Shown here: positions 38,154 to 64,000 of the stretch, one piece after another
How the letters are laid out: every line of letters begins with the position of its first letter
How positions within the stretch are numbered: the stretch's first letter is position 1
Assembly (NCBI RefSeq): GCF_001050035.1
Contig: NZ_CVTA01000004.1
Coordinates: 1-64,000, forward strand
DNA from: Mycolicibacterium komanii
Lineage (GTDB): Bacteria; Actinomycetota; Actinomycetes; Mycobacteriales; Mycobacteriaceae
Direction: 5' to 3'
Length of the DNA stretch: 64,000 nt
Notes under the pieces: model-generated
The model's database searches: none
What the model saw: the letters and a program-made list of their open reading frames with translations, nothing else
Told to the model about the DNA's origin: nothing
Position numbers and translations under genes: made by a program

Positions 38154-38463
38154 TATCGTTAGAGGATCAAGTTGTCGGCGCACCATGTCGACGAGACGGC
38201 GAGGAGTGGTATGAGCATCAATCCGTTCGATGACGAAAATGGAACCTTCGTCGTTCTAGTCAACGACGAGGAGCAACACAGCCTTTGGCCGACCTTCGCC
38301 GATATCCCAGACGGTTGGCGGGTGGTGTACGGCGAAGCAGACCGTGCTGCCTGTCTCGACTACATCGAACAGAACTGGCCTGACATCCGGCCGAAGAGCT
38401 TGCGCGACAGGTTGGCAAAAGATCGCGGGCAGTAGAAATAGCTCGGCGCCGGAAACGTCGTCG
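38154..38463 (+). repeat. MbtH-region duplication, copy 1
   Basis: Resembles 39322-39632: TATCGTT about 57 bp before the ATG, CGCACCA exactly 32 bp before it in both copies, the whole MbtH gene, and the downstream AGCTCGG block. Similarity extends beyond the coding part on both sides, so the unit copied was a segment with its leader and not only the gene. Confidence 0.75.
38211..38435 (+). CDS. mbtH: MbtH-like NRPS adenylation partner (copy 1)
   Basis: 74 residues. MbtH-domain hallmarks are [57 protein letters not shown]. Invariant Trp residues are present. Such proteins bind the adenylation domain and help it fold or work. ATG 38211 with GAGGAG upstream is preferred over the 13-residue longer frame. 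The protein differs from copy 2 by four conservative changes plus its C-terminal tail. Confidence 0.95.
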
Positions 38464-39379
38464 CCAGATTCCATCGTCCAAGCCGGACTTTCGAGTCCCG
38501 CTCGTTTCGACCTTGGGTTTTCTGCGCTCGGGCTTTGATGAGCGATAGAAGAGGGCCGTTATCCGTTGTGCCTTCCTCCGGAAGAAAGCTTCGGGGACGG
38601 CTGCAGCGCGGGCGGCAGCCAAGCAACCGGCCACACCGCGAGATCGTGGCGTATTTCGGGTAAGTGTGGGCAACGGCCCCGCCGCAACACCGGTGGGCGA
38701 AGTGGGAAGATAACTGTCTGACCGCCGCCGACGTCGTCAGAAACTATGGGCTCCTGCGCTGAATCGCGATCAAGGTCCACTGCGCTCAATCTTTCCCGCC
38801 GAACCCAAGCCGACATCGCGGCCATCTTGACTGAACCGGGGCCCCGAGTAAGTGTCTGACTCCGTCAGTGCTTACCATTCAAGTTTGCTCTTTGCAGCCT
38901 TTACCAGCTCACAGCAACCCCTAAAGGCGACCGCGTTCCGGGATCCTCGAAGCGGAACATTGCCGTCGTCACCGGATGATCATTACGGATGACCGCGGTA
39001 TGGCGACGTGTAGGGAGCCAGATTCCTATCGTTTCGTCTGAAATCAACGGCTGATGTCAACCTTTGCTGACTGACGGACCGCCGCTCTCCTTAGGTTCGC
39101 TCACGGCCTGCAAGGGTCGGAGTCGGCATTGCCCAGGTGGATTTCCGTCGGATCTGAGCATGCGTTCCAGGACAAGATCAAATCCTATTGCAGCAGGTCA
39201 ACCTGCCTGCTTCGCTACAGGCCGGTCCCGGCTGCGCGGCTATTTGCTACACCGTCAATTTTTAAATTCAGAAGTTCGCTGAGAAACTTCGAAAACCCCA
39301 CCCGTAACTGGCCGCCTCATCTATCGTTGGGAGAAACGAGCTATTGACGCACCAGTTCGATCTGACGGTGGAGAGTGGG
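38436..39379. other. Spacer between the two MbtH genes
   Basis: About 940 bp with no gene I can support on either strand; all frames are short. The first part repeats the downstream flank of copy 2 (38440-38463 against 39609-39632). The last 58 bp repeat the leader of copy 1. The middle may be a decayed gene or insertion, but I could not identify one. Confidence 0.6.
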
Positions 39380-39632
39380 ATGAGCATCAATCCTTTCGAT
39401 GACGATAATGGAACATTCGTCGTTCTAGTTAACGATGAGGAGCAGCACAGCCTGTGGCCCACGTTTGCCGAGATCCCAGACGGTTGGCGGGTGGTTTATG
39501 GCGAAGCGGAGCGCGCGGCGTGCCTCGACTACATCGAGCAGAACTGGCCTGACATACGGCCAAAGAGTCTGCGCGACAGGCTGGCGAGAGACCGCGCTCA
39601 TTCGAATTAGCTCGGGAGCGGGAACTTCGTCG
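39322..39632 (+). repeat. MbtH-region duplication, copy 2
   Basis: Second copy of 38154-38463, offset by about 1,169 bp. The coding parts carry many synonymous changes but few amino-acid changes, so the duplication is old and both copies seem to be under selection. Confidence 0.75.
39380..39610 (+). CDS. mbtH: MbtH-like NRPS adenylation partner (copy 2)
   Basis: 76 residues, same domain as copy 1 ([43 protein letters not shown]). It starts at ATG 39380; the 12-residue longer frame is less likely. It lies 44 bp before the giant NRPS gene, the usual position for an MbtH partner, so it is the more probable direct partner of this NRPS. Confidence 0.95.
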
Positions 39633-39654: not shown

Positions 39655-42600
39655 TTGCTTCATGACCGGTCGCTGGAAGCTACCCGCCAGCAGTTAGACA
39701 TATGGCTCGCGCAGGAGACGGGCCAAGCCGGCACGGAGTGGCAGCTCGGCCTGTTCGTGCGGATCGACGGACCGGTAGACCGCGATGCCCTTGAGTGGGC
39801 AATCCACCGCGTAGTGCGCGAGTCCGAACCTCTGAGGGCCGCTTTCTCTGAAGTAGACGGCAAGGTCGTTCAAGCAGCGATCGACTATTCAGACGTCGAT
39901 GTGGCATTCCATGACCTCACTGGCTCGCTCGATCCCGTTGAGGAAGCGCGCCGGCTAGCCGATTCGATCCAGCGGACACCGATGTCGCTGGCAGGCCCGT
40001 TGTTTAGGTTCGCGCTGTTCAAGACGCGTCTTGATGAGTTCTACCTGTTCGGGTGCTGCCACCACATTGTCATCGACGGGTTCGGCATTGCGTTGGTCGG
40101 CCAACGGATTGCATCGCTGTACTCCTCAGCGGTATCCGGTACCGCCGTTTCTCCCGCACTCTTCGGCTCATTGGAGGACTTGGTCGCTTGCGAGTCCGAA
40201 TACGAATCCTCGAACGATTACCTCGAGGATGAGGCCTTCTGGGCGGAACGCCTTCCGCAAGAAGCTTCGTCAAGCAGCCAGGGATACAACGCCGCGGAGA
40301 AGTGCGATTCGGGGCCTTCTGACCCGGTGCTTCTAGACCGCGGTGTCCTTGACCGCCTCGAAGAGTTCGCCAACCTGTGGCAAGTACCGCAAAATGCGGT
40401 CATCACCGCGGCGTGTGCGCTCGTGGTTCGAGGCTTGTGTGTGGACGGCTCGGAGGTCGTGCTCGACTTTCCGGTCAGCAGGCGAGTACGCCCGGAGTCC
40501 AAGACTCTCCCCGGGATGCTGGCCGGAATCGTCCCGCTGGTGCTGTCGCTGTCCCCGCAGTCCACTGTCGCCGACTTCTGTCGGCTCGTTGATGCACGAA
40601 TGCGGGAAGCGTTGCGGCATCAACGCTTCCCGGTACATGTCCTTGAGCGCAACGCCCACGCCCGTCGATCCGGGGAGTCGACGAACAGAGTGAGCGTCAA
40701 CTTCCTTCCGGCATCGTTCACACTGGATTTCGGTGGCGTTCGGGCATCGGCGTCACTGACCAATGCCGGCCGTATGGGCGGATTCGGATTGATCTTCTCC
40801 GACGCTGGCGGCGACCTTGCGCTAAGCGCGACGGGTGCTGGCCATCCGCTTTCCGGCGTCGATGTCGCTGATCTAGCGCAGCAGCTGGAGCGCGTCCTAT
40901 TGGCAATGTTTGACGACCCTTCACGGTCACTGCGTTCGCTCGGCGTGCTCGATGCGCTCGATCGGGCACGACTCGATGAGATGGGTAATCGAGCAGTGCT
41001 GGCGGCTCCAACACCATCGAGGGTTTCGATCGCAGAGTTGTTCGACCGTCAGGTGGCACGCGCTCCGCAGGCAGTGGCGTTGGTTTGTGGGGAGCGGTCA
41101 TGGACCTACCGCGAGGTCGATGAGGCCGCGAATCAGCTTGCGCACCTGTTCGCTCAGCACGGTGCTGGGCCGGGAGAAGTTGTGGCCCTACTGTTTCCGC
41201 GATCTGCCGAGGCGATCCTGGCGATACTGGGCGTCCTCAAGACCGGAGCGGCTTACCTGCCGATTGACATAGGGCATCCTGAGGTGCGGATCAGGTTCAT
41301 GCTCGAAGATGCCGCGCCGGTGGTAGCGGTCACCAACGCGACGTTGGTGGAGCGGTTGAGCGGCTTCCATGTGCCGGTGATCGACGTCGACAGTCTTCGG
41401 ATCGAATCTCGTTCCTCCAGCTCGCAGCCGGCTCCTACGGCGGATGATATCGCCTACCTCATCTACACCTCGGGCACTACCGGCGTGCCGAAAGGGGTGG
41501 CCGTTACTCACGGCAACGTCGTCCAGTTGCTGCAGTCAGCGGATCAGACGCTGATCGCGCCAGGACAGGTGTGGACGCAGTGGCATTCGTATGCCTTCGA
41601 CGTGTCGTGCTGGGAGATTTGGGGCGCACTGCTGGGTGGTGGGTGCCTGGTGGTGGTGCCCGAGGCCGTGGCGAGTTCACCGGACGATTTCCACACGTTG
41701 TTGGTGACCGAGAAGGTCAGTGTGCTGTGCCAGACGCCGTCGGCCGCTGGGATGTTGCCGTCGCGGGGGCTGGAGTCCTTGACCCTTGTGGTGGCAGGCG
41801 AGGCTTGCGCACCCGACTTGGTCAGTCGCTGGGCGTCCGGGCGCGTGATGATCAATGCGTATGGTCCGACGGAAGCTACGGTGTACTCGGCGATGAGTGC
41901 GCCGTTGGCGCCGGGGTCGGGGGCGGTGCCCATCGGGGGGCCGGTGCCCGGAGCTGCGTTGTTTGTGCTCGATGTGTGGTTGCGTCCGGTGCCCGTGGGG
42001 GTGGTTGGCGAACTGTACATAGCCGGCGCTGGGGTAGCCGTCGGATATGTGCGGCGTCCCGGGTTGACTGGTTCACGGTTTGTGGCGTGCCCGTTCGCAG
42101 GAGCGGAAGCGACCGGTCTAAGGATGTATCGCACTGGTGATCTCGTGCGTTGGGACGATAACGGCCAACTGCATTACTTGGGACGCACCGATGAACAGGT
42201 GAAGATTCGCGGATACCGGATTGAGCCGGGTGAGATCCAGGCGGTATTGGGTGGACTCGACGGGGTGGCCCTGGCGGCGGTCATCGTCCGCGAGGATCGT
42301 CCCGGCTATAAGCGTCTGATTGGATACGTCACTGAATCTTCTGACGGCGCAGTCGATCCCGATAGACTACAAGTTGCGTTGGCCGAACGGCTGCCTGCGT
42401 ACATGGTGCCCGCCGCCATCGTGCTGCTCGACGCGTTTCCGTTGACTGTCAACGGAAAACTCGACAGAGCTGCTCTCCCGGCGCCGGAGTACAGTGCGGG
42501 AACGTACCGCGCCCCAGTCACTCCGACCGAAGAGATACTGGTTGGCATTTACACCCAAGTGCTCGGGCTCGAGCGCGTCGGGGTTGATGAGTCGTTCTTC

Positions 42601-45600
42601 GATCTGGGCGGGGACAGCATTCTTGCAATGCGCCTAGTTGCCACGATCAACGCCGGCCTGGGCGTGCAACTCGCGGTGCGCGCGGTATTCGACGCCCCTA
42701 CGGTGGCACAGCTAGCTCTCCGCGTGACCGAAGGCGGCGACCGGCGGGAGCCGTTGGTGGCAGTCGAGCGGCCGTCAGTGGTGCCGTTGTCCTACGCGCA
42801 GAGCCGGTTGTGGTTTCTCAACCGGTTCGAGGGCGGTGCGGCGACATACAACATGCCCACGGCGTTGCGAATCAGCGGTGCGCTCGATCTCCAAGCGCTC
42901 GACATGGCGCTGGACGACGTGATCGCCCGCCATGAATCGTTGCGCACTGTCTTCCCCGACGTCGACGGTGAGCCGTATCAGCGGGTGCTGCCTGCGGAGG
43001 CTGGAATGTGGCGGCGCGGTGGCAAGGCGATCGAGCACCTCGCCGAAGAGGATCTCCCCGTCGAGCTGGCGGCGTTGGCGGAATATCGCTTCGATCTGGC
43101 CAACGAAATACCGATACGCGCACAGATCTATGCGATGGGGCCGGATCAATATGTGCTCGGAATTGTGGTGCATCACATCGCTTTTGACGGTTGGTCGTTG
43201 GCGCCGATGGTGCGCGATGTGGCTGAGGCATATCGCACGCGACGAGCCGGGCAGGAGCCGAGCTGGTCACCGTTGCCGGTGCAGTATGCCGATTACACGC
43301 TGTGGCAACAAGATTGGCTGGGTGACGAGGTAGATCCAGACAGCGTGATCGCCGCGCAGCTGGGCTATTGGCAAGCGGAATTGGCGGACTTGCCGGAGGT
43401 GGTGTCGTTGCGGGCGGATCGTCCGCGCCCGGCGGTGCCCAGCTATCGCGGTGACGGGGTGGAGTTGCGCATCGAGGCGCCGCTGTGGGCGCAGGTCAAG
43501 GCGGTGGCCGCGGCGCACAAGACGACGGCGTCGATGGTGATGCAGGCTGTCCTGGCGGTAGTGCTGAATCGCGCCGGTGCCGGTGAGGATATCGTGATGG
43601 GCTCACCAATCGCCGGGCGGTCAGACGCCGCGCTCGACGATCTGGTCGGTTTCTTCGTCAACACCTGGGTGCTGCGTGTTCCCGTGGGCTCCCAGGACTC
43701 GTTCAGCGAGGTGCTCGAGCGGGTGCGCCAGAAGGCGTTGGATGCCTACTCCAATCAGGATGTGCCGTTCGAGTTGCTGGTGGAGCAACTCAACCCGGTG
43801 CGCTCCGCATCGCATCACCCGCTGTTTCAGGTGGCCTTGGCGTTTCAGAACAACCTGCGCCCGGATATGACGCTCGAGGAAGTCAGCCTCGAGACAATCG
43901 AAATGGACACTCGCACCGCAAAGTTCGACCTGGATATCCAACTCAGTGAGTCGCCAGGTTCCGATGCGCCGACGACCACCGGTACGGTCACCTACGCCAC
44001 AGACCTCTACGACCGGTCGACCATCGAGCGGATGGTCGCCTGGTTCGGCCGCGTGCTCGAGGCGGTCGTCACGGACACCTCAGTCGTAGTCGGTGATATC
44101 GCATTGCTCGCCGACGGGGAACGCAGCCTGGTGCTGTCGGAATGGGCGGGTGCCCAGGTGCACACGCCGGTGGGGCTGGCTCCTGAACTACTGGCGGCGG
44201 CGGTGGCCGACAGTCCCGACACCTTGGCCGTCATCGACGGCGACCGGCAGTACTCCTACCGCGTGCTCGATGAGTGGTCGACGCGGCTGGCGCGGGTGCT
44301 CATCGAAGCGGGGGTAGGGCCGGAATGCACTGTGGCGGTGGCGATGGATCGCCGGGTGGAGCTGGTGGTTTCCTGGTGGGCGGTACTCAAGGCCGGCGGT
44401 GCATATGTGCCTGTGGATCCCGCACATCCAATCGAGCGCATCGCAGGGCTACTGGATGCGGTCGCCGCGCGCTGCGTATTGACCTACGGCACCGACACGT
44501 TGGCGGGAGCGGGATCGCGCCCGGTCTTGCGCGTTGATCGTCGGGATCTGTCGCGGCACAGTGCGGATCCGATCACCGACACCGATCGGTTGGCACCACT
44601 TTCTGCCGACAACGCCGCATATGTGCTCTTCACGTCGGGCTCCACCGGCGTGCCCAAAGGGGTCGTCGTCAGTCACGCCGGTCTACTGGGTGTGGCGGCA
44701 GCCCACCGTGGACAGTTCGCGCTTCGCGCGGGATCACGTGTGTTGATGGTCGCCGCACCGACTTTCGATGCTTCCATCTTCGAATGGATGTGGGCGGTGG
44801 GCTCATTCGCGACGTTGGTGGTAGCCGCACATGACGCCTACGGCGGGGAGGCATTGACCGATGTCTTGAGCACGCAGCGGGTCGACGCCGCGTTACTGAC
44901 TCCGACGGTGCTGTCCACGCTCGATCGAGCCCGGGTAACCGGGCTCGAGACCCTGGTGACCGGAGGGGAGGCCTGCCCCGCGCAACTGGTTGCCGCCTGG
45001 GCGCCGGGCCGTCGCATGTTCAACGCCTATGGGCCGACCGAGGCGACCATCTGGGCGACGTGTGATGCGTTGACCGTCGGAGAACCGGTGCGCATCGGAA
45101 CCCCGATCGCCGGGGTTACCGCGTTGGTGTTGGACGCTCGCCTCGAGCCCGCCCCCATAGGGGTGGTGGGCGAGCTGTATTTGGCTGGGCCCCCAGTGGC
45201 GCGCGGCTATGTCGGCCGACCGGGCCTGACCGCTGAGCGGTTCGTCGCCGCCCCCCATGGTGCGGCAGGGATGCGGATGTACCGCACCGGTGATGTGGTG
45301 CGCTGGACCATGGACGGCACGCTGGATTATCTAGGTCGCGCAGACGCCCAGGTGAAGCTGCGCGGGCAACGCCTGGAACTCGGCGAGGTGGAAAACACGC
45401 TGTTGGCCTGTCCGCAGGTCACTCGGGCGGCTGCCAGCCTGCACACGAGCGACAACGGTGATCATCTGGTGGCCTACGTGGGCCTGGAGCACACCACCGC
45501 CGTCGAACACGAGAGCCAAACCGTCGAGCACTGGCAAAACATCTACGACGAGCTGTACGAGGCTGACATCGAGGCGCCGGAGTTCGGCAGCGACTTCCGG

Positions 45601-48600
45601 GGCTGGAACAGCAGCTACACCAACGATCCGATACCCGTGACCGAAATGCAGCAGTGGCGATCGGCCACTGTGAACCGCATCATGGCGTTGCAACCAAGAC
45701 ATGTCTTGGAGATCGGCGTCGGCTCAGGCCTGGTGTTGTCCGAAATCGCACCTCTATGTGAGAACTACTGGGGGACAGATTTTTCCGCTCCTACCGTTCA
45801 AAAGTTGCAGTCAGCGGTGGCCTCACAGCCTTGGGGCGGTCGGGTCCGGCTGCTGACTCAGCCCGCGCACGTTTCGGGAGCACTTCCACGAGATTTGTTC
45901 GACACCATCATTATCAACTCAGTCATCCAGTACTTCCCCAGCCCACATTATCTGGCCCAGGTGATTGGGACCGCTGTCGATCTGCTCGCGCCGGGTGGAG
46001 CTTTGTTCATCGGCGACGTGCGCAACTACAGCCTGCAAAGTGCGTTCCAGACGGGTGTTGTGCTGGCCCACACCTCCGAAGGCGACGCTGCCGACATCCG
46101 GCATCGGGTTCAACGAGCAATGATGGGCGAGCCCGAATTGCTGCTTGCACCAGAATTTTTCACCACATTGGCCGCCGAGAACACATCGGTGGCCGGCCTG
46201 GACATCCAGCTGAAACGCGGAACCGCCGACAACGAGCTGACCCGTTACCGCTATGAGGTCGTCATTTACAAGACGCCCGCTGCCGTGCGCTCGCTGGTCG
46301 ATGTTCCGGCATGGGAATGGAGCTCCTGTGATGGACTCGAAGGGCTGCATGCCCTCCTGATGTCTCAACACCCGGAGACGATACGTATCACCGGGATTCC
46401 GCACGCCGGCGTCATCAGCGACGTCCGGGCCGAACAGGGCCTAGCTGAAGGGCTTTCTCTGAGCGAGGCGTTGGCCTTCGCTGCCGGAGCGCCGGGGGCA
46501 GTCACTCCCGAGCAATTGCATCGTCTCGGTGAAACCAGCGGATACCGGGCGGCGGTCACGTGGGGCCGCCAGCCTGGCGATCTGGATGCGGTCTTCACGC
46601 GTCCCGCCGACTTCGGCCATTCGTCGGCGTTGTGCGATCTGTACCTCCCTGCCGCCCACCCTGGGGCCAGCGCATACGCAAACGATCCGCACGCCAACAC
46701 CAAGATAAGCGCGGTGCGCCAGTGGATGAGCTCTCGGCTGCCTGACTACATGGTGCCGACTCACTTCGTGGTGCTCGACGAGTTCCCTATGACTTCCTCG
46801 GGCAAAATCGACCGAAAAGCTCTGCCCGAACCAGTGATTGCGGCAACAACATTCCGGGAGCCGCGGACTCAGACCGAAAGAGTCGTCGCCGACGTTTTCG
46901 CCGAGGTGCTGGGCGTCGACCGGGTGGGGCTCGATGACGACTTCTTCGCCCTGGGCGGAGATTCGCTGATCGCGATCCGCGTCAGTGCTCGGCTGCAGAC
47001 TGCCTTGGAGCGGGAAGTCCCCGTGCGATATCTGTTCGACGCCCCCAGGGTCGGAGAACTCGCCGATCACCTGAGCCAGCCTAGTGATGGTGCGGCCCAT
47101 TCCGCCCTGCGGCCGATGCCGCGTCCGGAGCGGGTGCCATTGTCTTTCGCCCAGAGTCGGTTGTGGTTCTTGGATCAGCTGCAAGGGCCGTCCGCCATCT
47201 ACAACATGGCGGTGGCCTTGCGGCTGTGCGGGAAGCTGGATGCGGGCGCACTCGGCGCGGCCCTGGGCGATGTGGTGGACCGGCATGAGAGCCTGCGCAC
47301 CTTGTTCGTGACAGAAGGAGGCATTCCCCACCAGGTGGTGACGCCGCCCGTTGGGGCCGACTTCGGTTGGGAGGTCATCGATGCCGGCCACTGGCCGAAG
47401 GCGCGGCTTGTCGAGGCAATAGACACGGCGGTGCGTCACAGCTTTGATCTCGCTGTCGAGATTCCAATGCGCGCGACGCTGTTCCGTACTGCTGATGACG
47501 AGCATCTACTGGTGGCAGTGGTGCATCATATCGCCGCGGACGGTTGGTCAATCGCCCCGTTGGTGCGTGATCTAGGGCTTGCATACGACAGCCGGTGTGC
47601 GGGACGGAGTCCGGACTGGTCGCCTTTGGCGGTGCAGTACATCGACTACACGCTGTGGCAGCGCGCGCACCTGGGTGACGTCGACGACGAAAGCAGTCCC
47701 ATCAGCGCTCAGATCGCCTATTGGGAGCAGGCTCTTGCCGGCCTACCCGAACGGCTGATATTGCCCACCGACAGGCCCTATCCGCCGGTGGCCGATTACC
47801 GCGGGGCCAGTGTGGCGGTCGACTGGTCAGCCCAGCTGCAGCGACAGGTGGCCCGGCTGGCCCGGGAAAGCAACGCCACCAGTTTCATGGTGATTCAGGC
47901 TGCAATGGCGGTGCTGCTATCCGAAATCAGCGGCAGCAGCGATGTGGCGGTGGGCATCGCCATCGCCGGACGCGGTGACCCGGCACTCGATGACTTGGTC
48001 GGCTTTTTTGTCAACACCTTGGTGCTACGAGTCGACCTGAGCAAGGAACGCGATATCGCTGGAGTATTGGCCCAGGTACGCAGGCGTGGTTTGGCCGCTT
48101 ACGAGCACCGGGATGTGCCTTTCGAGGTACTGGTGGACCGGCTCAACCCGATCCGATCGCTGTCTCATCACCCATTGGTACAGGTGATGATCACGTGGCA
48201 GAACCTCCCATGGCACAGCAGCGGCCCAGCGGCCGGCCTCCAATTGGGCGACGTTCAGGTTGAGCCGCTGCCCGCGGACACCTGCACCGCCCGCATGGAT
48301 CTGGTGTTCTCTTTGGCTGAGGGGTGGACGGAAGCTGGTGAGCCGGCGGGGATTTCGGGAATGGTGGAGTTCCGAACCGACGTATTCGACGCCGATACAA
48401 TCGAAACCCTGGTGAGGCGCTTGGAACGGGTGCTCCTGGCGATCACCGCGGATCCGGCTCAGGCATTGTCGTCGCTGGATGTGCTCGATGCCGCCGAACA
48501 CGCTCTGCTTGACGAGATCGGCCACCGGGAGGTCTTGGCTCAGCCGTTGACCGGGGAGTCGATTCCTGCGGTGTTCGCCCAACAGGTCGCACGCGCGCCG

Positions 48601-51600
48601 AGGGCGACGGCATTGACTTTTGCGGGTCAGTCGATGACCTACCGTGAGCTCGATGAGGAATCAAATCGTCTGGCGCACTTGCTGATCAGTGAAGGTGCAG
48701 GTCCGGGGCGGTGCGTGGCGACGTTGTTCGACCGTTCGTCCGAGGCGATCATCGCAATCGTTGCGGTCCTCAAGACGGGGGCGGCCTACCTGCCGATCGA
48801 TCCATCTGTGCCGGCGGCGCGGATCGCTTTCATGGTGGCAGATTCCACGCCGATCGCAGCGGTCACCTCTGCAGGGTTGACTGACCGCTTGCAAGGCCTC
48901 GATCTGAGGGTCATCGATGTCGCCGATCCGCGCGTTGACACCTACCCGCTGACCGCACTGGCTGCCCCGGCAGCACAGGACATCGCCCATATCATCTACA
49001 CCTCGGGTACAACTGGGACGCCGAAGGGAGTGGCGGTCACGCACCACAACGTGACCCGACTCTTCGACGGTCTTGATGTCGGTCTGAGTACGGGACCGAA
49101 ATCGGTCTGGTCCCAGTGCCATTCATATGCCTTCGATTATTCGGTATGGGAGATCTGGGGGGCATTGCTGTCCGGCGGGCGGCTGGTGGTGGTACCGGAC
49201 GCGGTGACTCGGTCCCCCCGGGACCTGCATGCGTTGCTGGTTGCCGAAGGCGTCACCGTGCTCAGTCAGACTCCGTCGGCGGTGGGGATGCTGTCGTCTC
49301 AGGGTTTGGATCAGACGGCGCTGATGATCGCGGCCGAACCGTGCCCGCCTGACGTAGTGGATCGGTGGGCGCCGGGACGCGTGATGATCAACGGTTACGG
49401 ACCGACGGAGACGACGGTGTATGCCACCATCAGCGCACCACTTGTCGCGGGGTCGGCGGACGTGCCGATCGGTGTGCCAGTCCCGGGAGCAGCGTTGTTT
49501 GTTCTCGACGCCCGGTTGCGGGCGGTACCGGCCGGGGTCGTCGGGGAATTGTATGTGGCCGGTTCTGGGGTAGGGCTGGGTTACGTGGGCCGGCCGGGAT
49601 TGAGCGCGTCTCGGTTTGTGGCCTGTTCCTTCGGGGCCCCGGGTCAGCGCATGTATCGGACCGGGGATCTGGTGTCGTGGGGCGCTGACGGACAGCTGCG
49701 CTATTTCGGTCGGGCTGACGAGCAGGTCAAGATCCGCGGCTATCGCATCGAATTGGGCGAGATCCAGGCCGCGCTGACGGCGTTGGAGGGTGTGGATCAA
49801 GCCGCCGTGATCGCCCGTGAGGACCGCGTCGGCGACAAGCGCCTGGTCGGATACATAACGGGAGATGCCGATCCGACACAGGTCCGCGCCCAACTATCTG
49901 ACCGGCTACCGGCCTACATGGTGCCAACGGCGGTGGTCCTCCTCAATGCGCTGCCGCTGACGGTCAACGGCAAGCTCGACAAGCGCGCGTTGCCGGCACC
50001 CGAGTACGCCGAATGCGACACGTATCGCGCCCCACGCACTGCGGTCGAGGAAATCCTGGCTGGGATCTTCGCTCAGATTCTGGGACGTGAGCGGGTGGGG
50101 GTCGACGACTCGTTCTTCGACCTCGGCGGGGACTCCTTGTCCGCAATGCGGGTGACCGCCGAGATCAACACCGCGCTGGGCGTCGACGTCGCGGTGCGAA
50201 CACTGTTCGATGCGTCCACAGTCGCCCAACTCGCGCCGCGTATTGGAGAAGGTTCGCGCGGGCTTCCACCGTTGGTAGCGGGCGAGCGGCCCACGGTGTT
50301 GCCGCTTTCGTTCGCCCAACAGCGGTTGTGGTTCCTCGAACAGTTGCAAGGACCTTCGGCGATCTACAATATGCCGGTCGCGCTGCGGCTGACCGGACAG
50401 CTTGACGCCGAGGCGCTGGGTGCCGCGCTGGCCGATGTGGTAGCCCGGCAAGACACCTTGCGTACGGTGTTTGCGGCGGTCGACGGGGCCCCCCAACAGT
50501 TGCTGGTGCCCGCCGAACGGGCGGACTTCGGCTGGGAGATCATCGATGCCGGAGGCTGGTCACCCGCCAAGCTGAGTGAGGCAATCGATGAGGTGGCGTT
50601 CCACGCCTTCGACCTCAACACCGAGATTCCGCTACGTGCAACGCTTTTCCGAGTTGCCGAAGACGAGTACGTCCTGGCGGCGGTCGTGCACCACATCGCC
50701 GCGGACGGCTGGTCGATAGGTCCGTTGGTCACAGATCTCGGGCTCGCATACGCCAGCCGGTGTGCGGGTAGCGCGCCTGATTGGGCGCCGCTGCCGGTTC
50801 AGTACGTCGACTACACGCTATGGCAGCGTCGACACCTCGGCGATATTTCTGACAGCGCGAGTCCCATCGCGGTGCAGTTGGCTTATTGGGAACACGCGCT
50901 TTCGGGGCTACCCGAGCGGTTGGCCTTGCCCACCGATCGGCCGTATCCGCCGGTTGCCGATTACCGGGGGTCCACTGTGACGGTGGACTGGCCGGCTGAT
51001 GTGCAGCAGCAGGTGGCCGCGGTGGCACGCGAGCGCAACGCGACCAGTTTCATGGTGGTGCAGGCCGCGATGGCGGTGTTGCTGGCCGAAATCAGCGCGA
51101 GTTCTGATGTGGCAGTGGGCTTTCCGATTGCAGGACGGCGCGATCCAGTCCTCGATGAATTGGTGGGATTCTTCGTCAACACGCTGGTGTTGAGGGTTGA
51201 TGTGGCCGGGGACCCAACGGTTGCTGAGCTCATCGATCAGGTGCAACAACGTGCGCTAGCCGCTTACGAGCACCAGGACGTGCCTTTCGAGGTATTGGTA
51301 GAGCGGCTCAACCCGAACCGCAGTCTTACCCATCACCCGCTGGTGCAGGTGATGTTGGCGTGGCAGAACTTCGCCGGAAATCCCGTTGCCGATCTCTCCC
51401 TTGGTGATGTGCAAGTCGCCCCGATACCCGTGAACACCCGCACTGCACGTATGGACTTGGCGTTTTCGTTAGCTGAATGCTGGACTGCGACTGGCGAACC
51501 CGCTGGGATAAGCGGGACAGTGGAGTTCCGTACCGATGTGTTCGACCGTGCGGGGATCGAGTCACTGGTCGACCGGTTGCGACGCGTGATCGTGGCGATG

Positions 51601-54600: not shown

Positions 54601-57600
54601 ACTGCCAAATTCGATCTGGATTTCGATGTGAGAGAGGTGGCCACTGAGGACCCTGCCAAGTCGATGGCTGCCGGCGCCGTGACGTACGCGACGGATTTGT
54701 TCGACCGGTCCTCCATCGAGCGGTTGGTGCGCTGGTTTGACCGGATCGTCGAGGCGGTCGTCGTCGATACCTCGGTGGTTATCGGTGAGGTCGGGCTGCT
54801 GGGCCACGATGAACGCGATCTAGTGCTGTCGGAGTGGTCTGGCGCAGCGGTGACAGCGCCGGCCGGTATCGCGCTGCAGTTGCTTGCGTCAGCGGTAGCC
54901 GCGGATCCGGACGCGGTGGCGGTTGTCGACGGTGAGCGCCAATTGTCGTACCGGGTGCTCGATGATTGGTCGACCCGGATGGCGCGGGCGCTCATCGAGA
55001 CGGGAGTTGGCCCTGAATGCGCCGTGGGTGTAGCCACGGGCCGTTGCGCGGAGTTGGTGGTGGCCTGGTGGGCGGTCCTCAAGGCCGGTGGGGCCTATGT
55101 GCCGCTGGACACTGCGCATCCGGTTGAGCGCGTCGCCGGGGTGTTGGACACCGTGGATGCGAAGTGTGTACTGACCTGTGGCGTCGACGCTTTCGCGGGG
55201 ACGGGCTCGCGCCCGGTGCTACGCATGGATGACCGGGCTGTGTGTGGTGTCTCCGCGGACCCCATCACAGATGCCGATCGTCTGGCACCGTTGTCTGTGG
55301 ACACCGCCGCTTATGTGATCTTCACGTCGGGATCGACCGGCGTTCCCAAGGGCGTCGTGGTGAGCTACGCCGGTCTGCTCGGACTGGCTGCGGCGCAGCG
55401 CCATACGTTCGGCTTGGCCCCCACCTCTCGGGTGTTGATGGTCGCCGCACCGACCTTCGATGCATCGGTCTTCGAGATGTTGTTGGCCGCGGAGGCGGGT
55501 GCGACGCTGGTGGTGGCCGAACGCGATGCCTACGCCGGGGAAGCGCTGACCGATCTCCTGCAAGATCAACGGGTCAGTGCGGCCGTGGTGACGCCCTCTG
55601 TAGTGGCTTCGCTGGACCGGGCTCGGCTCGATGGGCTTGACACCCTCATCACGGCCGGGGAGCCATGTCCGGACGAACTCGCGGCCGTGTGGTCACCGGG
55701 GCGGCGGATGTACAACGCCTACGGTCCCACGGAGACGACGATCTGGGCGAGCTGCACGGCACCGCTGTCTGTGGAGCAGCCCGTCGACATCGGCGTGCCG
55801 ATCCCAGGCGTGTCTGCGCTGGTTCTGGATTCACGGTTGAACCCGAGCCCGCCCGGGATGGTCGGCGAACTGTATGTGTCCGGATCTGCGCTCGCGCGCG
55901 GGTACGTCGGCAGGCTGGCACTGACGGCGGAGCGGTTCGTGGCCAACCCGTACGGCAGGGCCGGAGAACGGATGTATCGCACTGGGGATCTGGTGCGCTG
56001 GTTACCGGCGGGCACGCTCCAGTATTTGGGGCGCGCCGACGCACAGATAAAACTGCGCGGGCAGCGCATCGAGTTGGGTGAGATCGAGAACACGCTGCTG
56101 GGTTGCCCGCTCGTCACGCAGGCCGCGGCGACCGTGCACCATAGCGATACCGGTGCGGATCATCTGGTCGCCTATGTCGCCCTGGAGCATGTCAGCACCG
56201 TCCATCACGACGTTGAGATCGTCGACCAGTGGCAGCACATGTACGACGAGTTGTACGGCTCTGAGCTCGAAATATTGGAATTCGGAATGGATTTCCGTGG
56301 CTGGAACAGCAGCTACACCGGTGATCCGATTCCTCAACCGCAGATGGAGGAGTGGCGGCGCGCCACTGTGGACCGGATTCTGGAGTTGCAGCCAAGGCGT
56401 GTTTTGGAGATCGGCGCGGGCTCGGGTCTGATTCTGTCTCAAGTCGCTCCGAACTGTGAACGCTATGTCGGCACTGATATGTCCGGAGAGGCTGTCGACA
56501 ACCTCGCGAACGCGCTCGAACGATTGCAGATTCCGTGGCGGGACCGCGTTGAGTTGTTGACCCGCCCAGCGCACGTGACAGACGGCCTTCCGGTCGGTTA
56601 CTTCGACACTGTGATCTTCAACTCGGTAATCCAGTATTTCCCGAACGCGGGATACCTGGCCGAAGTCATTGACGCTGCAATGGACCTCCTGGCACCCGGT
56701 GGAGCTTTGTTCATCGGCGATGTGCGAAACCACAGTTTGCAGAGGGCCTTCCAGACTGCAGTGGCATTCGCACGCGCGAAGACCGACGACGCCGCCGACA
56801 TTCGCCAGCGGGTGGAGCGCGCGGTGCTGGGCGAACCCGAGTTGCTGCTCGCGCCGGAATTCTTCACTACATGGGCTGTCGAGCATCCGTCAGTCGCCGG
56901 CCTCGACATCGAAGTCAAACGCGGCATAGCCGACAACGAGTTGAACCGGTACCGCTACGACGTCATAGTCCACAAGACTCCCACCCAAGTGAGGTCAATG
57001 GCCGAGGTACCCACCTGGGAGTGGAAGACGAGCGGCGGTGTCACCGCCTTGGAAGCCGCGTTGACGGCGCGGCGCATCGACGCGGTGCGAGTTTGCTCTA
57101 TTCCGCGGGCCGGGGTCATCAGCGACGTTCAGGTCGAACAAGCTCTGGCCGCCGGATTGACGGCCGTCGAGGCGCGCAGTAAGGCCGCAGTGATATCGGA
57201 AGGGGTTGTCCCGGAACAGCTGTACCGCCTGGGTGAAGCGACCGGATACCACGTCGCAGTCACATGGGGCGCTGAACCCGGCACCGTCGATGCGGTGTTC
57301 ACCGCAGCGCTGAACGGTGCGAACGGACCCGCGTGGACAGACCTGTATCGGGCCCCGGCCACAGCCGAACAGCGCAGCATCTACGCCAACGATCCCGACA
57401 CCAACACGAAGATCAGCGCGGTGCGCCAGTGGATGGGCGAGCGGTTACCCGAGTACATGGTGCCAAGCCAGATCGTGGTCCTCGACGAACTGCCACTGAC
57501 CTCCTCGGGCAAGGTAGACCGCAAGGCGCTACCCGAACCGGTGTTCGCGGCTACGGCTTTCAGGGCCCCTCAGACACAAACTGAAAAGATCATCGCCGAC

Positions 57601-59178
57601 ACCTTCGCCGACGTATTGGGCGTGAGCCGGGTCGGCCTCGACGATGACTTCTTCGGACTCGGGGGCGATTCATTGATAGCGACCCGGGTGACTGCGCGGC
57701 TTCAATTGGCTCTGGGCCGGGAAGTACCGGTGCGATGCCTGTTCGACGCGTCAACCGTTCGCGGTCTCGCTGACTACCTGCGCCGGCATGGTGGCGATGC
57801 GGTACGTCCGGCGGTGCAACCGATGCCGCGCCCGGAGCGGCCACCGCTGTCCTACGCTCAGCAACGGTTGTGGTTCTTCGACCAATTACAAGGACCATCC
57901 CCGGTTTACAACATGCCAGTGGCGTTGCGAATGAGCGGGCCGCTGAATGTGTCGGCGTTGGGGGCGGCACTGGTCGATGTGGTAACCCGCCAAGAGAGTC
58001 TGCGCACGCTGTTCCCGTCGGTCGACGGTCTACCACATCAGCTCGTGGTGCCCTCCGAGTCCGCGGACTTCGGTTGGGTCGTTGTCGATGCCAAAGGCTG
58101 GTCGGCAACGCAGCTGGAGGAAGCCGTTGGTGCGGTGGCGCGTCACAACTTCGACTTGCGCAACGAGATCCCGCTGTATGCACGGCTTTTCCGCGTGGCG
58201 GACAACGAGCACATATTCGTAGCGGTGGTTCACCATATTGCTGCCGACGGCTGGTCGGTCAGACCGCTCGTGAGGGATCTGTCAGTGGCGTACGCCAGCA
58301 GGTGTGCGGGAAGGACACCCGATTGGTCGCCGTTGCCGGTGCAGTATGTCGACTACACGCTGTGGCAGCGAGAGCATCTCGGGGACCTGACGGATGACGA
58401 CAGCCCGATCGCCGCACAGCTGGCCTACTGGGAGGATTCCCTGGCCGGGCTGCCGGAGCGGCTACAGCTGCCCACCGATCGGCCGTATCCGCCGGTGGCC
58501 GACTATCGCGGTGCCAGCGTGGAGGTGGACTGGCCGGCGCAGCTGCAGCAGCGGGTACGCGATCTGGCCCGTGAACACAACGCTACGAGCTTCATGGTGA
58601 TCCAAGCCGCCTTGTCGGTCTTGCTGTCCAAGCTCAGCGGCAGCTCCGATGTGGCAGTGGGGATCACGACCGCTGGTCGCGGTGACCCCGCACTGGACGA
58701 GCTGGTCGGTTTCTTCGTCAACACGTTGGTGTTACGTGTCGATCTGGGTAGCGATCCCACGATCGCCGAACTGCTGAACCAGGTTCGCGAGCGCGGCCTG
58801 GCGGCTTACGAAAACCAGGACGTGCCTTTTGAGGTGCTGGTGGATCGGCTCAACCCCACTCGTAGCCTGACCCAGCACCCCTTGGTGCAGGTGATGTTGG
58901 CGTGGAACAACCTGCCGTGGTACAGCAGCGGTCCCGCGGCCGGGCTGACTCTCGGTGATGTGCAGATCACGCCGCTATCGGCGCAAACACATACTGCACG
59001 AATGGATTTGGTCGTCTCCCTGGCTGAACGTTGGAGCGACACCGGCGAACCGGGGGGGATTGGGGGGCTAGTGGAATTCCGTACCGACGTATTCGACGTC
59101 GCAACCATCGAGCTGCTGATTGAGCGCTTGCGACGCGTGTTGATGGCGTTGACCGCCGACGTGGCGGCACAGTCATGA
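39655..59178 (+). CDS. Giant lipopeptide non-ribosomal peptide synthetase, modules 1-5 plus C6
   Basis: 6,507 residues from TTG 39655, with GGGGG 6 nt upstream. Domain order by residue: starter C1 5-433 (HHIVIDG), A1 456-942, T1 (Ser988); C2 1044-1487, A2 from 1503, N-methyltransferase 1953-2219, T2 (Ser2437); C3 2496-2942, A3 2969-3449, T3 (Ser3494); C4 3550-3996, A4 4016-4502, T4 (Ser4550); C5 4606-5049, A5 from 5069, N-methyltransferase 5521-5786, T5 (Ser6006); C6 6064-6502. No epimerase or thioesterase is visible. Hand-read pocket codes are A1 DVWCVAAVY, A2 DAFLVGAIW, A3 DYWSMAGVY, A4 DFWTVGVMW, A5 DAFVIAAIW. A2 and A5 fit a bulky aliphatic residue. Predicted role is assembly of an N-acylated peptide with N-methyl residues at positions 2 and 5. 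Its stop overlaps the next NRPS gene (ATGA). Confidence 0.95.
42784..46310 (+). repeat. C-A-NMT block of module 2 (paralogous to module 5)
   Basis: The C2, A2 and methyltransferase segments are more alike to those of module 5 (53470-57010) than to any other module here: [34 protein letters not shown] and the methyltransferase SVIQYFP and [13 protein letters not shown] occur only in these two. The SAM motif is [13 protein letters not shown] (from about 45706). The block looks duplicated as a unit. Confidence 0.85.
53470..57010 (+). repeat. C-A-NMT block of module 5 (paralogous to module 2)
   Basis: Second copy of the block at 42784-46310. Methyltransferase motif [13 protein letters not shown] starts near 56407. 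The pocket positions differ from module 2 only by conservative exchanges (L/V, V/I, G/A), which predicts the same amino acid, N-methylated, at positions 2 and 5. Confidence 0.85.
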
Positions 59179-62100
59179 CGGCGGATCTCACACGGCGCTT
59201 GTCGTCGATGGATCTGATGGACGACGCCGATTACGCGCAGCTGGACGACTGGGGCAATCGCGCGGTCCTGACCGAGTCGATGGGCGTACCGTCGCGGTCG
59301 ATCCCCGACTTGTTCCATAAGCAGGTGGCGCGCACGCCGGATGCTGCGGCACTCACATTCGGTGGACGATCCTGGACGTATCGGGAACTGGACGAGGCGT
59401 CGAACCGGTTGGCGCACCTGCTGGCAGCGCGCGGCGCCGGTCCAGGTCAGTTTGTGGCGTTGCTGCTTTCACGCTCGGCCGAGGCGATCGTGGCGATCCT
59501 GGCGGTGCTCAAGACAGGTGCCGCTTACCTGCCGATCGACCCGCTGCATCCCGATGCTCGAGTGGACTTCATGCTCGGCGACGCGGCGCCGATGGCTGCG
59601 GTCACCACCGCCGGTCTGGCCGAGCGGTTGAACGGATATGAGCTGCCGGTGATCGACGCCGAGGGCCCCGCGGTGCATAGCCAGCCGGGTACGCCGTTAC
59701 CGGTACCCGATCCCGACGACATCGCGTACCTCATCTACACCTCGGGCACCACCGGCGTGCCCAAGGGGGTGGCCATCAGCCATCGCCATGTCACACGGAT
59801 GCTTGAAACCCTCGACAGTGATCTTCATTTCGCGAATCAGGTATGGACGCAATGTCACTCATTGGCCTTCGACTACTCGGTGTGGGAGATTTTCGGGGCG
59901 CTGCTGCATGGCGGTCGCCTGGTGGTGGTCCCCGACGAAGTTGTGCGCTCTCCGCGTGACCTCCACGCTCTCTTGGCTGCCGAACACGTCAGCTTGTTGA
60001 GCCAGACGCCATCGGCGTTCTACGCGCTTCAGACAGTGGATTCGCTGGAGCACGAACGCAGGTCGGAGTTGACGCTCGAGGCGGTCGTGTTCGGCGGAGA
60101 AGCCCTCGATCCTCAGCGCATCCTCACCTGGTTGAATAACCATCCGGAATCACCGCGGATGATCAACATGTACGGCATCACCGAAACCACGGTGCACGCG
60201 TCAGTTCGCGAGATCATCGAGGCTGACGTCGAGAGCGGTGCCAGCCCTATCGGGGTGCCGTTGGGTCATCTGGCCTTCTTTGTATTGGACAGTTCGCTAC
60301 AACAGGTGCCGGCCGGGGTGGTCGGTGAGTTGTACGTGGCCGGTGGCGGTCTGGGTATGGGGTATTGGCGCCGAGGCGGATTGAGCGCGACGCGTTTCGT
60401 CGCCTGTCCGTTCGCGAGCAAGGACACGCCAGGACAACGGATGTATCGGACCGGGGATTTGGTCCGGTGGAGTCTTGACGGGCAGCTGACCTACATGGGG
60501 CGTGCCGACGAGCAGGTCAAGCTTCGCGGATATCGCATCGAGCTGGGTGAGATCCAGGCCGCGCTCGCCGGATTGGACGGAGTCGAGCAGGCGGCAGTCA
60601 TCGCGCGTGAGGACCGCCCCGGCGACAAGCGCCTGGTCGGATACATCACCGGCGAGGCGGACCCCACCAAGGTCCGGGTGCGGCTTGGCGAGCGGTTGCC
60701 GTCATATATGGTGCCGGCCGCGGTGGTGACGCTAGAGGCGCTGCCGTTGACGGTCAACGGCAAGCTGGACAAGCGCGCCTTGCCCGAACCCGAGTACACG
60801 GAAGCGGACCGCTACCGAGCTCCCGCCACCGCGGTCGAGGAAATACTCGCCGGACTGTACGCTCGGGTGCTCGGACTGGAACGGGTGGGAGTGGACGACT
60901 CGTTCTTCGACTTGGGTGGCGATTCGCTGTTGGCGACGCGGATGATCGCCGCCATCAACAACGATCTCAGTGCCGATCTGGCCGTGCGCACGCTCTTCGA
61001 ATCGCCCACCGTGGCCCAACTGGCGCTTCGCCTCGATGAGCGTTCGGGCGGATTCGAACCTTTGACGACGCGGCAACGCACTGAGATTCTGCCGCTGTCA
61101 TTTGCGCAGCAGCGATTGTGGTTCCTGCATCAGCTGCATGGGCCCTCGCCCGTCTACAACCTGCCCGCGGCGTTTCGGATCAGTGGTGCGCTGGATGTCG
61201 ACGCATTAGACGCAGCGTTGGCTGATGTGGTGGCCCGCCAAGAGAGCCTTCGCACAGTGTTTTTGGCACGCGAAGGGGTTCCCGAGCAGGTCATCATGTC
61301 CGCTGAGCAGGTGGATCCGGGCATGCGGGTCGTCGATGCAGCGGGCTGGTCGGAACCACAGATTGAAGAGGCCGTCGGCGCCGAGGTGCGGTATGGCTTC
61401 GATTTGTCGACGGAAATCCCGTTGCGCACAACGGTGTTCCGCCTAGGAGGCGACGATCACATCTTGGTGGCGGTGGTGCATCATATCGCCGCAGACGGCT
61501 GGTCGATCACCACGTTGATACGCGACCTCGTCATTGCGTATACCAGCCGGGCCACCGGACACACACCGGACTGGGCGCCGTTGCCGGTGCAGTATGTCGA
61601 TTACACGTTGTGGCAGCGCGAGCAGCTGGGCGATCTCGATGATGCCGACAGTCGCATCGCTGCGCAGGTGGGTTACTGGGAGCAGGCGCTGGCCGGATTG
61701 CCTGAGCGACTTGACTTGCCCACCGATCGGCCGTACCCGCCGGTGGCGGATTACCGCGGGGGCAGTGTGGCCGTGGAATTTCCGGTGGAACTGCAACAAG
61801 GGCTCGGACGGGTTGCCCGCGAGCACAATGCAACCAACTTCATGGTGGTGCAGGCCGCATTGGCGGCGTTGTTGGCCAAATTGAGCGCCAGCTCAGATGT
61901 GGCGATCGGCTTCCCGATCGCTGGGCGGCGAGATCCGGCCCTGGACGATCTCGTTGGATTGTTCGTCAACACCTTGGTGTTGCGGGTCGAACTGTCCGGT
62001 AACCCCAGTGTCGCTGAGCTTCTGGCTCAGGTCCGTGCACGCAGCCTGGCAGCTTTCGAGCATCAGGATGTGCCGTTCGAGGTGTTGGTGGATCGGCTCA

Positions 62101-64000
62101 ATCCAGCCCGATCACTGACGCATCACCCGCTTGTGCAGGTGTTGTTGGCCTGGCAGAACCTACCTGCGGGCAACCGCGAGCGCGTCGCGGGGGAGAACTC
62201 CGATCTTCAAGTCTCGCCGCTGGAGGTTGAAACCCAGGCGGCTCGGATGGATCTGACGTTTTCGCTGGCTGAGCGATTCAACGAGTTTGGTGAACCGGTA
62301 GGCATCGGTGGAGCGGTGGAGTTCCGAACCGATGTGTTCGATGCGGCCGGCATCGAGGTGTTGATCGGGCGGCTGCAACGAGTCTTGACGGCCATCACCG
62401 CCGACCCCACACGTCAGCTGTCGTCGGTGGATGTGCTCGACGCCGGCGAGTACGCGCTTCTGCGCCGGTGGGAGAACCGGAAAGCCGTGACTCCTGTCGC
62501 ACCAGCGAGTACTTTGGTGCCGTCCATCCCGGCGTTGTTCGCCGAACGGGTTGCACAGGCGCCGGACGCGTTAGCGGTGAGCTTCGACGGTCACGGCATG
62601 ACGTACCGGCAATTGGATGAGGCCGCCAACCGACTTGCCCATCTGTTGGTCAGCCAGGGTGCGGGTCCATCGGAGTGTGTGGCGCTACTGGTTCCGCGCT
62701 CAGCCGAGGCGATCGTGTCGATTCTCGCAGTCCTGAAAACGGGAGCTGCCTATCTGCCGATCGATCCGGCGCTCCCCGCGGCCCGGATCGAGTTCATGCT
62801 GGGCGACGCGGCGCCACTGCTTGCGGTCACTACCGATGGGCTCGCGGAGCGGTTCGAGGGGCGCGGACTGTCGGTCATCGACGTCAATGACCCAGCCGTC
62901 GCCGACCAACCGAGCATCACGCTCCCAGCGCCGGCAGGCGATGAGATCGCCTACCTGATCTACACGTCGGGTACCACCGGTGTCCCGAAAGGCGTTGCGA
63001 TTACTCATCACAACGTCATCGAGCTACTTGCGTCGTTGTCTGCTGATGTACCCCGGTCCGGGGTGTGGTCCCAGTGGCATTCCTATGCCTTCGACGTGTC
63101 GGTGTGCGAGATCTGGGGTGCTCTACTCGGTGGTGGGCGACTGGTCGTGGTTCCCGAGCCGGTCACCCGCTCTCCAGAGGAATTCCATGCCCTGCTGGCC
63201 CGTGAACAGGTAAGCGTGTTGAGCCAGACCCCCTCGGCGTTCTATGCGTTGCAAACCGCCGATGGACTGGCACCCGAGCTGGGACAGCAGCTCGCGCTTC
63301 AGAGCGTGATCTTCGCCGGCGAAGCCCTTGAACCGCAACGTCTTCGGTCCTGGCTAGAACGTCATCCCCGATCACCGCGGCTGTTGAATCTCTATGGCAT
63401 CACCGAGACCACGGTGCACGCCTCGTTCCGAGAAATCGCCGCTGGGGACATCGACAGCAACGCGAGCCCAATCGGGATTCCACTGAGCCATCTTGGCTTC
63501 TTTGTGCTGGATCAGTGGTTACGTCCAACCCCGGTCGGGGTGGTCGGTGAGCTGTATGTGGCCGGTAGCGGGCTGGGATTGGGGTACTGGCGCCGCCCCG
63601 CATTGACATCATCGCGGTTCGTGGCATGCCCGTTAATTGACGCGGGAGCACCCGGACAACGGATGTATCGCACAGGCGATCTGGTCTGCTGGGGCGCCGA
63701 CGGTGAACTGCGCTACCTGGGTAGAGCCGATGAGCAGGTCAAGATCCGCGGGTTCCGGATCGAACTCGGCGAGGTTCAGGCTGCGCTCGCTGCAGTTCCC
63801 GGGGTGGACCAGGCGGTGGTGATCGTCCGCGAGGACCGTGCCGGCGACAAGCGTCTGGTCGGTTACGTCACCGGGACCGTTGATCCGGCGCTGGCACGCA
63901 GTGCATTGGCGGACAGACTGCCCGGATATATGGTGCCAGCCGCGGTGGTCGGCATCGAAGCGTTGCCGTTGACGGTCAACGGCAAACTCAATAGGCGCGC
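59175..64000 (+). CDS. Lipopeptide NRPS, modules 6-7 (continues past the right edge)
   Basis: The frame opens at ATG 59175, overlapping the previous stop, and stays open to the edge (about 1,608 codons). Domain order: A6 24-537, T6 (Ser584 in FFDLGGDSL), C7 639-1082 (HHIAADG), A7 from about 1119, reaching its last core motif NGKLNRR at the edge. It has no C domain of its own at the start; its first A domain must work with C6 at the end of the preceding protein. A6 has the typical threonine-type context ([13 protein letters not shown]) and a pocket DYWSVGMVH, near the known threonine code DFWNIGMVH. A7 has the same context with DVCSIALVH, less canonical. More modules must follow. Confidence 0.95.

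Follow-up and report, generated by a model that had tools for sequence, protein, structure and literature searches.

A peptide synthetase locus of Mycolicibacterium komanii, probably the start of an eleven-module sister of the likely fortuitine line

The window analysed here, a stretch of 64,000 nucleotides from Mycolicibacterium komanii (contig NZ_CVTA01000004.1 of NCBI RefSeq assembly GCF_001050035.1, positions 1 to 64,000 of the forward strand), ends within a pair of large non-ribosomal peptide synthetase (NRPS) genes, called NRPS1 and NRPS2 below, and raises the question of which peptide they assemble. A sequence-only reading had proposed fortuitine, or a fortuitine-like acyl-peptide, for positions 39655-64000. 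The residue order of fortuitine, which we take to be Val-MeLeu-Val-Val-MeLeu-Thr-Thr-Ala-Pro with N-methyl groups at 2 and 5, is the basis of the register used in this work. The compound, an early example of a peptide sequenced by mass spectrometry (1965), is an acylnonapeptide methyl ester according to the title of Barber et al. 1965, cited here through a reference list. Our comparisons indicate that the window very probably holds the start (modules 1-6 and the beginning of module 7) of an eleven-module NRPS with a terminal thioesterase, whose product would be an N-acylated, likely glycosylated undecapeptide and not fortuitine.

Condensation (C), adenylation (A, AMP-binding), carrier (T, PP-binding) and methyltransferase (MT) domains were identified in NRPS1 and NRPS2 with Pfam. 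Scanning with models made from the domains of the window itself gave the order C-A-T / C-A-MT-T / C-A-T / C-A-T / C-A-MT-T / C for NRPS1 and A-T / C-A for the visible part of NRPS2. The features are listed below, with the nine pocket letters of each A domain; GL8P and L5P are two mycobacterial lipopeptides of reported structure.

39655..59178, + strand: NRPS1, modules 1-5 and the C domain of module 6, 6507 amino acids (aa), single open frame
39691..40968, + strand: starter C domain (predicted N-acylation), grouping with first C domains from GL8P- and L5P-type lines in a clade of support 1.0
41041..42048, + strand: A1, pocket DVWCVAAVY, Ala-like (8/9 positions as Ala)
44194..45210, + strand: A2, pocket DAFLVGAIW, shared with modules 2 and 5 of the M. 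fortuitum line, which stand for MeLeu in the fortuitine register
45664..46053, + strand: N-methyltransferase core of module 2 (domain scan; S-adenosylmethionine (SAM) motif)
48574..49584, + strand: A3, pocket DYWSMAGVY, Val-type by the fortuitine register
51730..52743, + strand: A4, pocket DFWTVGVMW, Ile-type (9/9 as the Ile modules of GL8P-/L5P-type lines)
54886..55905, + strand: A5, pocket DAFVIAAIW, nearest MeLeu (6/9)
56362..56757, + strand: N-methyltransferase core of module 5 (domain scan; SAM motif)
57844..59166, + strand: C domain of module 6, at the end of NRPS1 (domain scan)
59175..64000, + strand: NRPS2, first 1608 aa, continuing beyond the window
59313..60365, + strand: A6, pocket DYWSVGMVH, Thr-type
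62538..63587, + strand: A7, pocket DVCSIALVH

The start codon of NRPS1 is unsettled, TTG at 39655 being the first start listed for the frame. Seven A domains between 39655 and 64000, with N-methyltransferases in modules 2 and 5 only, had been described from the sequence and are borne out by the scan. The A domains had also been sorted into three families in the order X, Y, X, X, Y, Z, Z; the pockets of the two Y modules (2 and 5) are indeed related, while the three X modules (1, 3 and 4) turn out to have Ala-like, Val-type and Ile-type pockets. A7 is Thr-type-like over the pocket region, but its code differs from the Thr codes.

The modules beyond position 64000 were read in close relatives. 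Contig C104 of genome G001, taken as Mycobacterium sp. 852002-51961_SCH5331710, has 98% DNA identity over the last 4826 bp of the window; position by position, 1577 of 1608 residues are equal in the visible part of NRPS2 and 6184 of 6507 in NRPS1. The NRPS2 of G001 (7047 aa) has the order A-T/C-A-T/C-A-MT-T/C-A-T/C-A-MT-T/C-A-T and a tail that matches Pfam Thioesterase (1.3e-31). Core motifs, sought by pattern in NRPS1 of the window and the full NRPS2 of G001 (P0013), are present in all C, T and MT domains as well as the thioesterase; the strict patterns missed one A3 and three A10 motifs. The complete line has 11 modules, with N-methyltransferases at 2, 5, 8 and 10, in G001, in Mycolicibacterium sp. 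GF69 and in genome G145, and in these three genomes the window's seven pockets are identical or changed by one letter. The same six-module order is found in NRPS2 proteins named Mycobacterium neumannii and Mycobacterium sp. GA-1999. Two further modules had been expected after module 7, but four follow in G001, GF69 and G145; from the 11 modules of these relatives an eleven-residue lipid-peptide is therefore predicted, and not fortuitine.

The best surviving alternative, still an unlikely one, is that NRPS2 of the window departs from its relatives past 64000, for example by recombination or shortening, and makes a fortuitine-like peptide of some other length. Across the complete clusters of the family NRPS2 has 3, 4 or 6 modules, and a second NRPS2-like gene occurs in several of them, which gives this idea some room. 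The identity with G001, however, continues right to the window end, and the eleven-module order is common to three genomes with practically the same seven pockets, which argues for eleven modules in M. komanii as well.

Nine pocket positions of each A domain were read from alignments with a stretch of gramicidin S synthetase 1 that is identical to PDB entry 1amu, and the letters were calibrated on mycobacterial lines matching GL8P and L5P. A line of Mycobacteroides sp. CBMA 271 (DFWSVGMVH, DVWSVAAVY, DVWTAVAMC, DFWTVGVMW, DAESLAAIC, DFWTLGAVY // DFWSVGMVH, DFWSVGMVH) reads T-A-F-I-Y-L-T-T, with epimerisation-like segments after 1, 3, 6 and 8. GL8P of M. abscessus is TAFIYLTT, with positions 1, 3, 6 and 8 predicted as D (PMC11978893). 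In two M. abscessus proteins the codes of positions 2 to 6 are the same as in the CBMA 271 line or one letter off. A protein named M. avium (subspecies not stated) reads Phe-MeVal-Ile-Phe-Ala, with an epimerisation-like segment after 1; this is the reported residue order of L5P, which is called unique to subsp. paratuberculosis (PMC8103206).

Read in this way, residue 4 of the window-type line is Ile (9/9), residues 6 and 11 are Thr (8/9 against the GL8P Thr pockets), residue 9 is Phe (8/9 against L5P, 7/9 against GL8P) and residue 1 is nearest Ala (8/9), while Leu at 2 and Val at 3 and 8 were taken from the fortuitine register. Domain order and pocket letters are observed; the residues that we infer from them suggest a product of the type acyl-(Ala-like)-MeLeu-Val-Ile-MeAaa-Thr-Aaa-MeVal-Phe-MeAaa-Thr. 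The threonine-like character earlier ascribed to module 6 was confirmed. Set against the pockets that fortuitine would call for (Val, Leu, Val, Val, Leu, Thr, Thr, Ala, Pro), those of modules 2, 3 and 6 agree and that of module 5 comes near, whereas modules 1, 4 and 7 of the window and modules 8 and 9 of its relatives disagree. Codes calibrated on the GL8P- and L5P-type lines can serve as a local dictionary for other mycobacterial lipopeptide lines.

The 51 C domains placed in a tree came from the window and G001, from the GL8P- and L5P-type lines, from the line of M. fortuitum and from two lines of eight modules. All first C domains (6/6) fell into one clade and all C domains after epimerisation-like segments (11/11) into another, both with support 1.0, and the remaining C domains of the window type lay outside both. 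As the first C domain groups with the starters of acyl-peptide lines, it is therefore considered to be of the acylating kind, in agreement with the starter C domain from which the sequence-only reading had the assembly begin. Epimerisation-like segments, scored as partial hits of the C-domain model, were not found in the window-type line; with none of its C domains in the D-accepting clade, an all-L chain is therefore predicted. G001 also encodes a second large NRPS of 10017 aa and eight modules (C83, 29628-59678, minus strand; L012-L013), with epimerisation-like segments, a thioesterase-like end and last two pockets of Ala and DVWNVAG types.

Upstream of NRPS1 the following genes were annotated.

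31552..32196, + strand: MmpS-type membrane protein (Mycobact_memb), predicted export partner (Pfam PF05423, 8e-56)
32193..35072, + strand: MmpL transporter 1 (Pfam MMPL, 1.6e-220; NCBIfam TIGR00833 above cut-off)
35169..38066, + strand: MmpL transporter 2 (Pfam MMPL, 3.5e-223; TIGR00833 above cut-off)
38172..38435, + strand: MbtH-like protein, copy 1 (Pfam PF03621, 3e-29)
39344..39610, + strand: MbtH-like protein, copy 2 (Pfam PF03621, 3.2e-29)

mmpS and mmpL genes are neighbours in classical glycopeptidolipid (GPL) loci as well, and the acylating-type starter C domain together with mmpS/mmpL and mbtH neighbours gives the locus features of a mycobacterial N-acyl peptide (GPL-like) system. The two mbtH copies form a direct repeat of 300 nt (38162-38461 and 39331-39630) with 82% DNA identity; this tandem duplication before NRPS1 is common to the window and G001, and one mbtH match was obtained in the GF69 stretch. 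Two sensor kinase genes (25294-26637 and 29642-30946, both - strand) and a response regulator gene (26674-27558, - strand) lie directly before the mmpS gene, and this group (25294-30946) possibly regulates the cluster.

After NRPS2, G001 has a glycosyltransferase gene (GT28/EryCIII-like) and an FkbM methyltransferase gene, homologues of which lie downstream in GF69, and G145 has a class I methyltransferase gene, with a glycosyltransferase gene further on and on the opposite strand. A carboxyl-methyltransferase-like gene was not found within the flank covered after NRPS2 (2.5 kb in G001, 18 kb in GF69, 7 kb in G145).

From these parts a route may be proposed in which the starter C domain acylates residue 1. 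Five residues would come from NRPS1, namely one like Ala, then MeLeu, Val and Ile, and last another N-methylated one that is probably aliphatic; the terminal C domain of NRPS1 would hand the chain to NRPS2. There Thr, one further residue, MeVal, Phe, another N-methylated residue and Thr would be added, and release by the thioesterase would give an acid or a lactone. The products of the downstream glycosyltransferase and methyltransferase genes may then decorate it, and MmpS and MmpL may export it to the cell surface. The neighbouring genes and their distribution are observed; acylation, release form, glycosylation and export are what we infer.

A line for a free cyclic peptide antibiotic or siderophore, in place of a surface lipopeptide, is quite improbable: a thioesterase behind a Thr-type last module, together with an internal Thr-type residue, would permit a lactone, but the starter C domain groups with acyl-peptide lines, mmpS-mmpL-mmpL lie beside it, as MmpS and MmpL genes are part of the GL8P locus (PMC11978893), and glycosyltransferase and methyltransferase genes follow in the relatives.

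The undecapeptide line was also compared with described systems. The GL8P locus of Mycobacteroides abscessus likewise has two NRPS genes, MbtH, MmpS/MmpL, a thioesterase and glycosyltransferase and methyltransferase genes, but GL8P has 8 residues and four epimerisation domains (PMC11978893); the starter C domain of the GL8P-type line is in the same clade as that of the window, and the calibrating Mycobacteroides line is without N-methyltransferase. L5P of M. avium subsp. paratuberculosis has the starter C clade and the N-methyltransferase of module 2 in common with the window, and differs in its 5 residues, D-Phe at position 1 and lack of sugars (PMC8103206). The classical GPL (Mps1/Mps2) is an N-acylated, decorated NRPS product that requires an MbtH-like protein, but its core is a tripeptide-aminoalcohol (PMC3537567), against 11 modules and a thioesterase end in the relatives of the window; it was rejected for these reasons, and the earlier judgement that the four-residue glycopeptidolipid does not fit is upheld.

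To describe the wider family, the genus was searched with the A2-MT module of the window (E<=1e-170); with three candidates scored per genome the counts are lower bounds, and matches were obtained in at least 113 of 396 genomes. By eye, 21 genomes with an NRPS1-length frame and two hits about 10.7 kb apart were chosen, and 20 loci were read; G151, whose contig runs out, was not used, nor were fragmented cases (G163 and G359 among them). An NRPS1 frame of about 6.5 thousand aa (kaa) with two A-MT modules about 10.7 kb apart is present in the window, G001, GF69 and 18 of the 20 loci, which had been picked for it. Eleven modules were found in one locus (G145). Seven nine-module lines (G371, G147, G350, G253, G319, G295 and G261) have N-methyltransferases at 2 and 5 and at no other position, and their NRPS2 pockets follow the order Thr-Thr-Ala-(DVWNVAG type), here abbreviated T-T-A-P. 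Eight other nine-module lines have N-methyltransferases at 2, 5 and 8 (G142, G303, G302, G215, G044, G274, G158 and G284), nine-module G043 has them at 2, 5, 8 and 9, and nine-module G035 has them at 2 and 5 with NRPS2 pockets other than T-T-A-P. The contig of G199 stops before NRPS2, and in G321 8 A domains were read from an incomplete NRPS2 frame. The NRPS2 frames of L096 (G261) and L093 (G321) look broken or incomplete, that of G261 stopping just past the last A domain. A Leu-type last pocket marks a nine-module subfamily with N-methyltransferases at 2, 5 and 8 (L091, L092, L098, L102, L103, L105 and L107, in G142, G303, G302, G215, G044, G274 and G158), in which G044 was taken as M. peregrinum, G303 as M. 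frederiksbergense and G302 as [M.] burgundiense.

The T-T-A-P lines include a better candidate for fortuitine than the window line.

Genome G371, contig C1, about 985.6-1019.7 kb: M. fortuitum nine-module line and two tailoring genes

In G371 pockets 1, 3 and 4 are identical, as are 2 and 5, and 6 and 7; pocket 8 equals the Ala pocket found in the calibrating lines, and pocket 9, of the DVWNVAG type and without independent calibration as a Pro pocket, is unique. These equalities are the pattern of Val-MeLeu-Val-Val-MeLeu-Thr-Thr-Ala-Pro. G147, G350, G253 and G319 agree with it apart from letter changes at 5 or 6, and in G295 and G261 pocket 4 is Leu-like, which leaves five of the seven T-T-A-P lines fitting V-mL-V-V-mL-T-T-A-(P), some letters changed. 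Over a stretch of 500 residues, G371 matches a protein named Mycolicibacterium fortuitum at 100% (76% in the next best of eight genomes); G147 was taken as M. lutetiense, G350 as M. boenickei and G253 as M. houstonense, and the T-T-A-P order recurs in proteins of M. setense, M. septicum and M. conceptionense. These species presumably all belong to the M. fortuitum complex.

Directly after NRPS2, all seven T-T-A-P clusters have a WS/DGAT-type acyltransferase gene and then a methyltransferase gene of the ICMT/PEMT family, the ICMT-like genes matching the NCBIfam isoprenylcysteine O-methyltransferase model below its cut-off (flank covered in G371, about 16 kb). This pair occurs in none of 14 other clusters with some flank covered, among them the three complete window-type clusters: an ICMT-like gene alone was seen in G321, G302 and G274, an acyltransferase-like gene alone in G035, G145 and GF69, and neither in the other eight, including G001. 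Fortuitine bears acetylated threonines, and with these and its methyl ester an acyltransferase and an ICMT-like gene are what its line needs. The nine-module homologue of the M. fortuitum complex is thus likely to be the fortuitine line proper, as judged from module order, pockets and gene content. Ala- and Pro-type end modules, a methyl-ester step and acetyltransferases had been expected downstream of the window; in its three complete relatives modules 8 and 9 are of other types and the pair of tailoring genes was not found in the flanks covered, and the seven T-T-A-P clusters have candidates for each of these parts (with the Pro pocket uncalibrated).

The likely fortuitine line of M. fortuitum resembles the window type in its two genes, an NRPS1 of about 6.5 kaa with a starter C domain, N-methyltransferases at 2 and 5 and a terminal C domain, an NRPS2 starting with (M/V)TADL(S/T)RR and a Thr-type A domain, a tail, about 290 residues long, behind the last T domain and an MbtH gene just upstream. 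In M. fortuitum the mbtH gene is immediately upstream of NRPS1 and the mmpS-mmpL genes lie about 30 kb past NRPS2. The M. fortuitum line differs in having 9 modules instead of 11, an NRPS2 without N-methyltransferase, the pockets V-mL-V-V-mL-T-T-A-(P), and acyltransferase and ICMT-like genes downstream where the window type has glycosyltransferase and methyltransferase genes. That the window itself makes fortuitine, acyl-Val-MeLeu-Val-Val-MeLeu-Thr-Thr-Ala-Pro methyl ester, is highly improbable and was rejected because module count, N-methylation, pockets and tailoring genes disagree: the N-methyltransferases at 2 and 5, the Thr-type pocket at 6 and the homology with the best-fitting fortuitine lines agree with it, but in three relatives module 7 is followed by four modules, two of which (8 and 10) carry N-methyltransferases, the Ala-like pocket 1, the Ile-type pocket 4 and pocket 7, which is not of the Thr type, are not those of Val, Val and Thr, and no carboxyl-methyltransferase-like gene was found in the flanks covered. 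The broader proposal of a fortuitine-like acyl-peptide is supported by homologous lines, one of them in M. fortuitum, that fit fortuitine module by module.

Two other lines whose first codes and length fitted, L029 (Mycobacterium sp. AZCC_0083) and L046 (M. frederiksbergense LB 501T), were rejected as fortuitine lines for their 8 modules, epimerisation-like segments and N-methyltransferase at 2 only.

In several nine-module clusters a second NRPS2-like gene, with an A domain first, lies within about 10 kb after NRPS2 (L099/L118 in G371, L101 in G350, L104 in G253, L105 in G274, L106 in G319). In G350, G253, G319, G295 and G261 its N-terminus is (M/V)TADLxRRLSS, as in NRPS2. When starter C domains were searched with that of M. 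fortuitum (E<=1e-60), one was found in G350 and two each in G371, G253 and G319, the second sitting in a frame of 8.1-8.2 kaa that is GL8P-like in G371. This suggests a branched assembly line in which one NRPS1 may feed two alternative NRPS2 partners.

A fortuitine gene cluster was not found in the open-access literature searched, a search that covered articles and not supplement Data S1 of PMC11978893; one paper does no more than list the 1965 work among its references. According to that paper a second GPL-like locus varies between species, with predictions in Data S1, and its main text is without the word 'fortuitum'; a predicted M. fortuitum product may therefore already stand in Data S1. 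In the text available from PMC4365757, 'fortuitum' is named only alongside other lipids.

Several points weigh against the undecapeptide. Everything beyond the A domain of module 7 comes from relatives and not from the window's own DNA. Residues 5, 7 and 10 are unread and residue 1 is no more than Ala-like, and Val at 3 and 8 and MeLeu at 2 depend on the fortuitine register, itself a matter of interpretation. Glycosylation is proposed from gene neighbourhood, with 2.5 kb of flank after NRPS2 in G001. Epimerisation was scored through partial hits of a C-domain model and not with an epimerisation model, and dual C/E domains lay outside its scope. Finally, a Pfam scan of 26 of the 101 open reading frames of the window (150 aa or more) found no fatty-acid-activating gene.

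On balance, the window line is probably a longer, probably glycosylated sister of the likely fortuitine line within the same family. We lean, with some reserve, towards a new class of surface lipids, all-L glycosylated lipoundecapeptides with four N-methyl groups, in a family that would also hold the fortuitine synthetase as the nine-module line of M. fortuitum. The window is not the fortuitine cluster, yet it pointed to an M. fortuitum line with a residue-by-residue fit and with the tailoring genes that fortuitine would need. If this is true, fortuitine, a compound of the 1960s, and its longer glycosylated sister would both be tied to genes, and the longer, probably glycosylated surface lipid predicted for the window type may be a species marker, as has been proposed for GL8P and L5P (PMC11978893).

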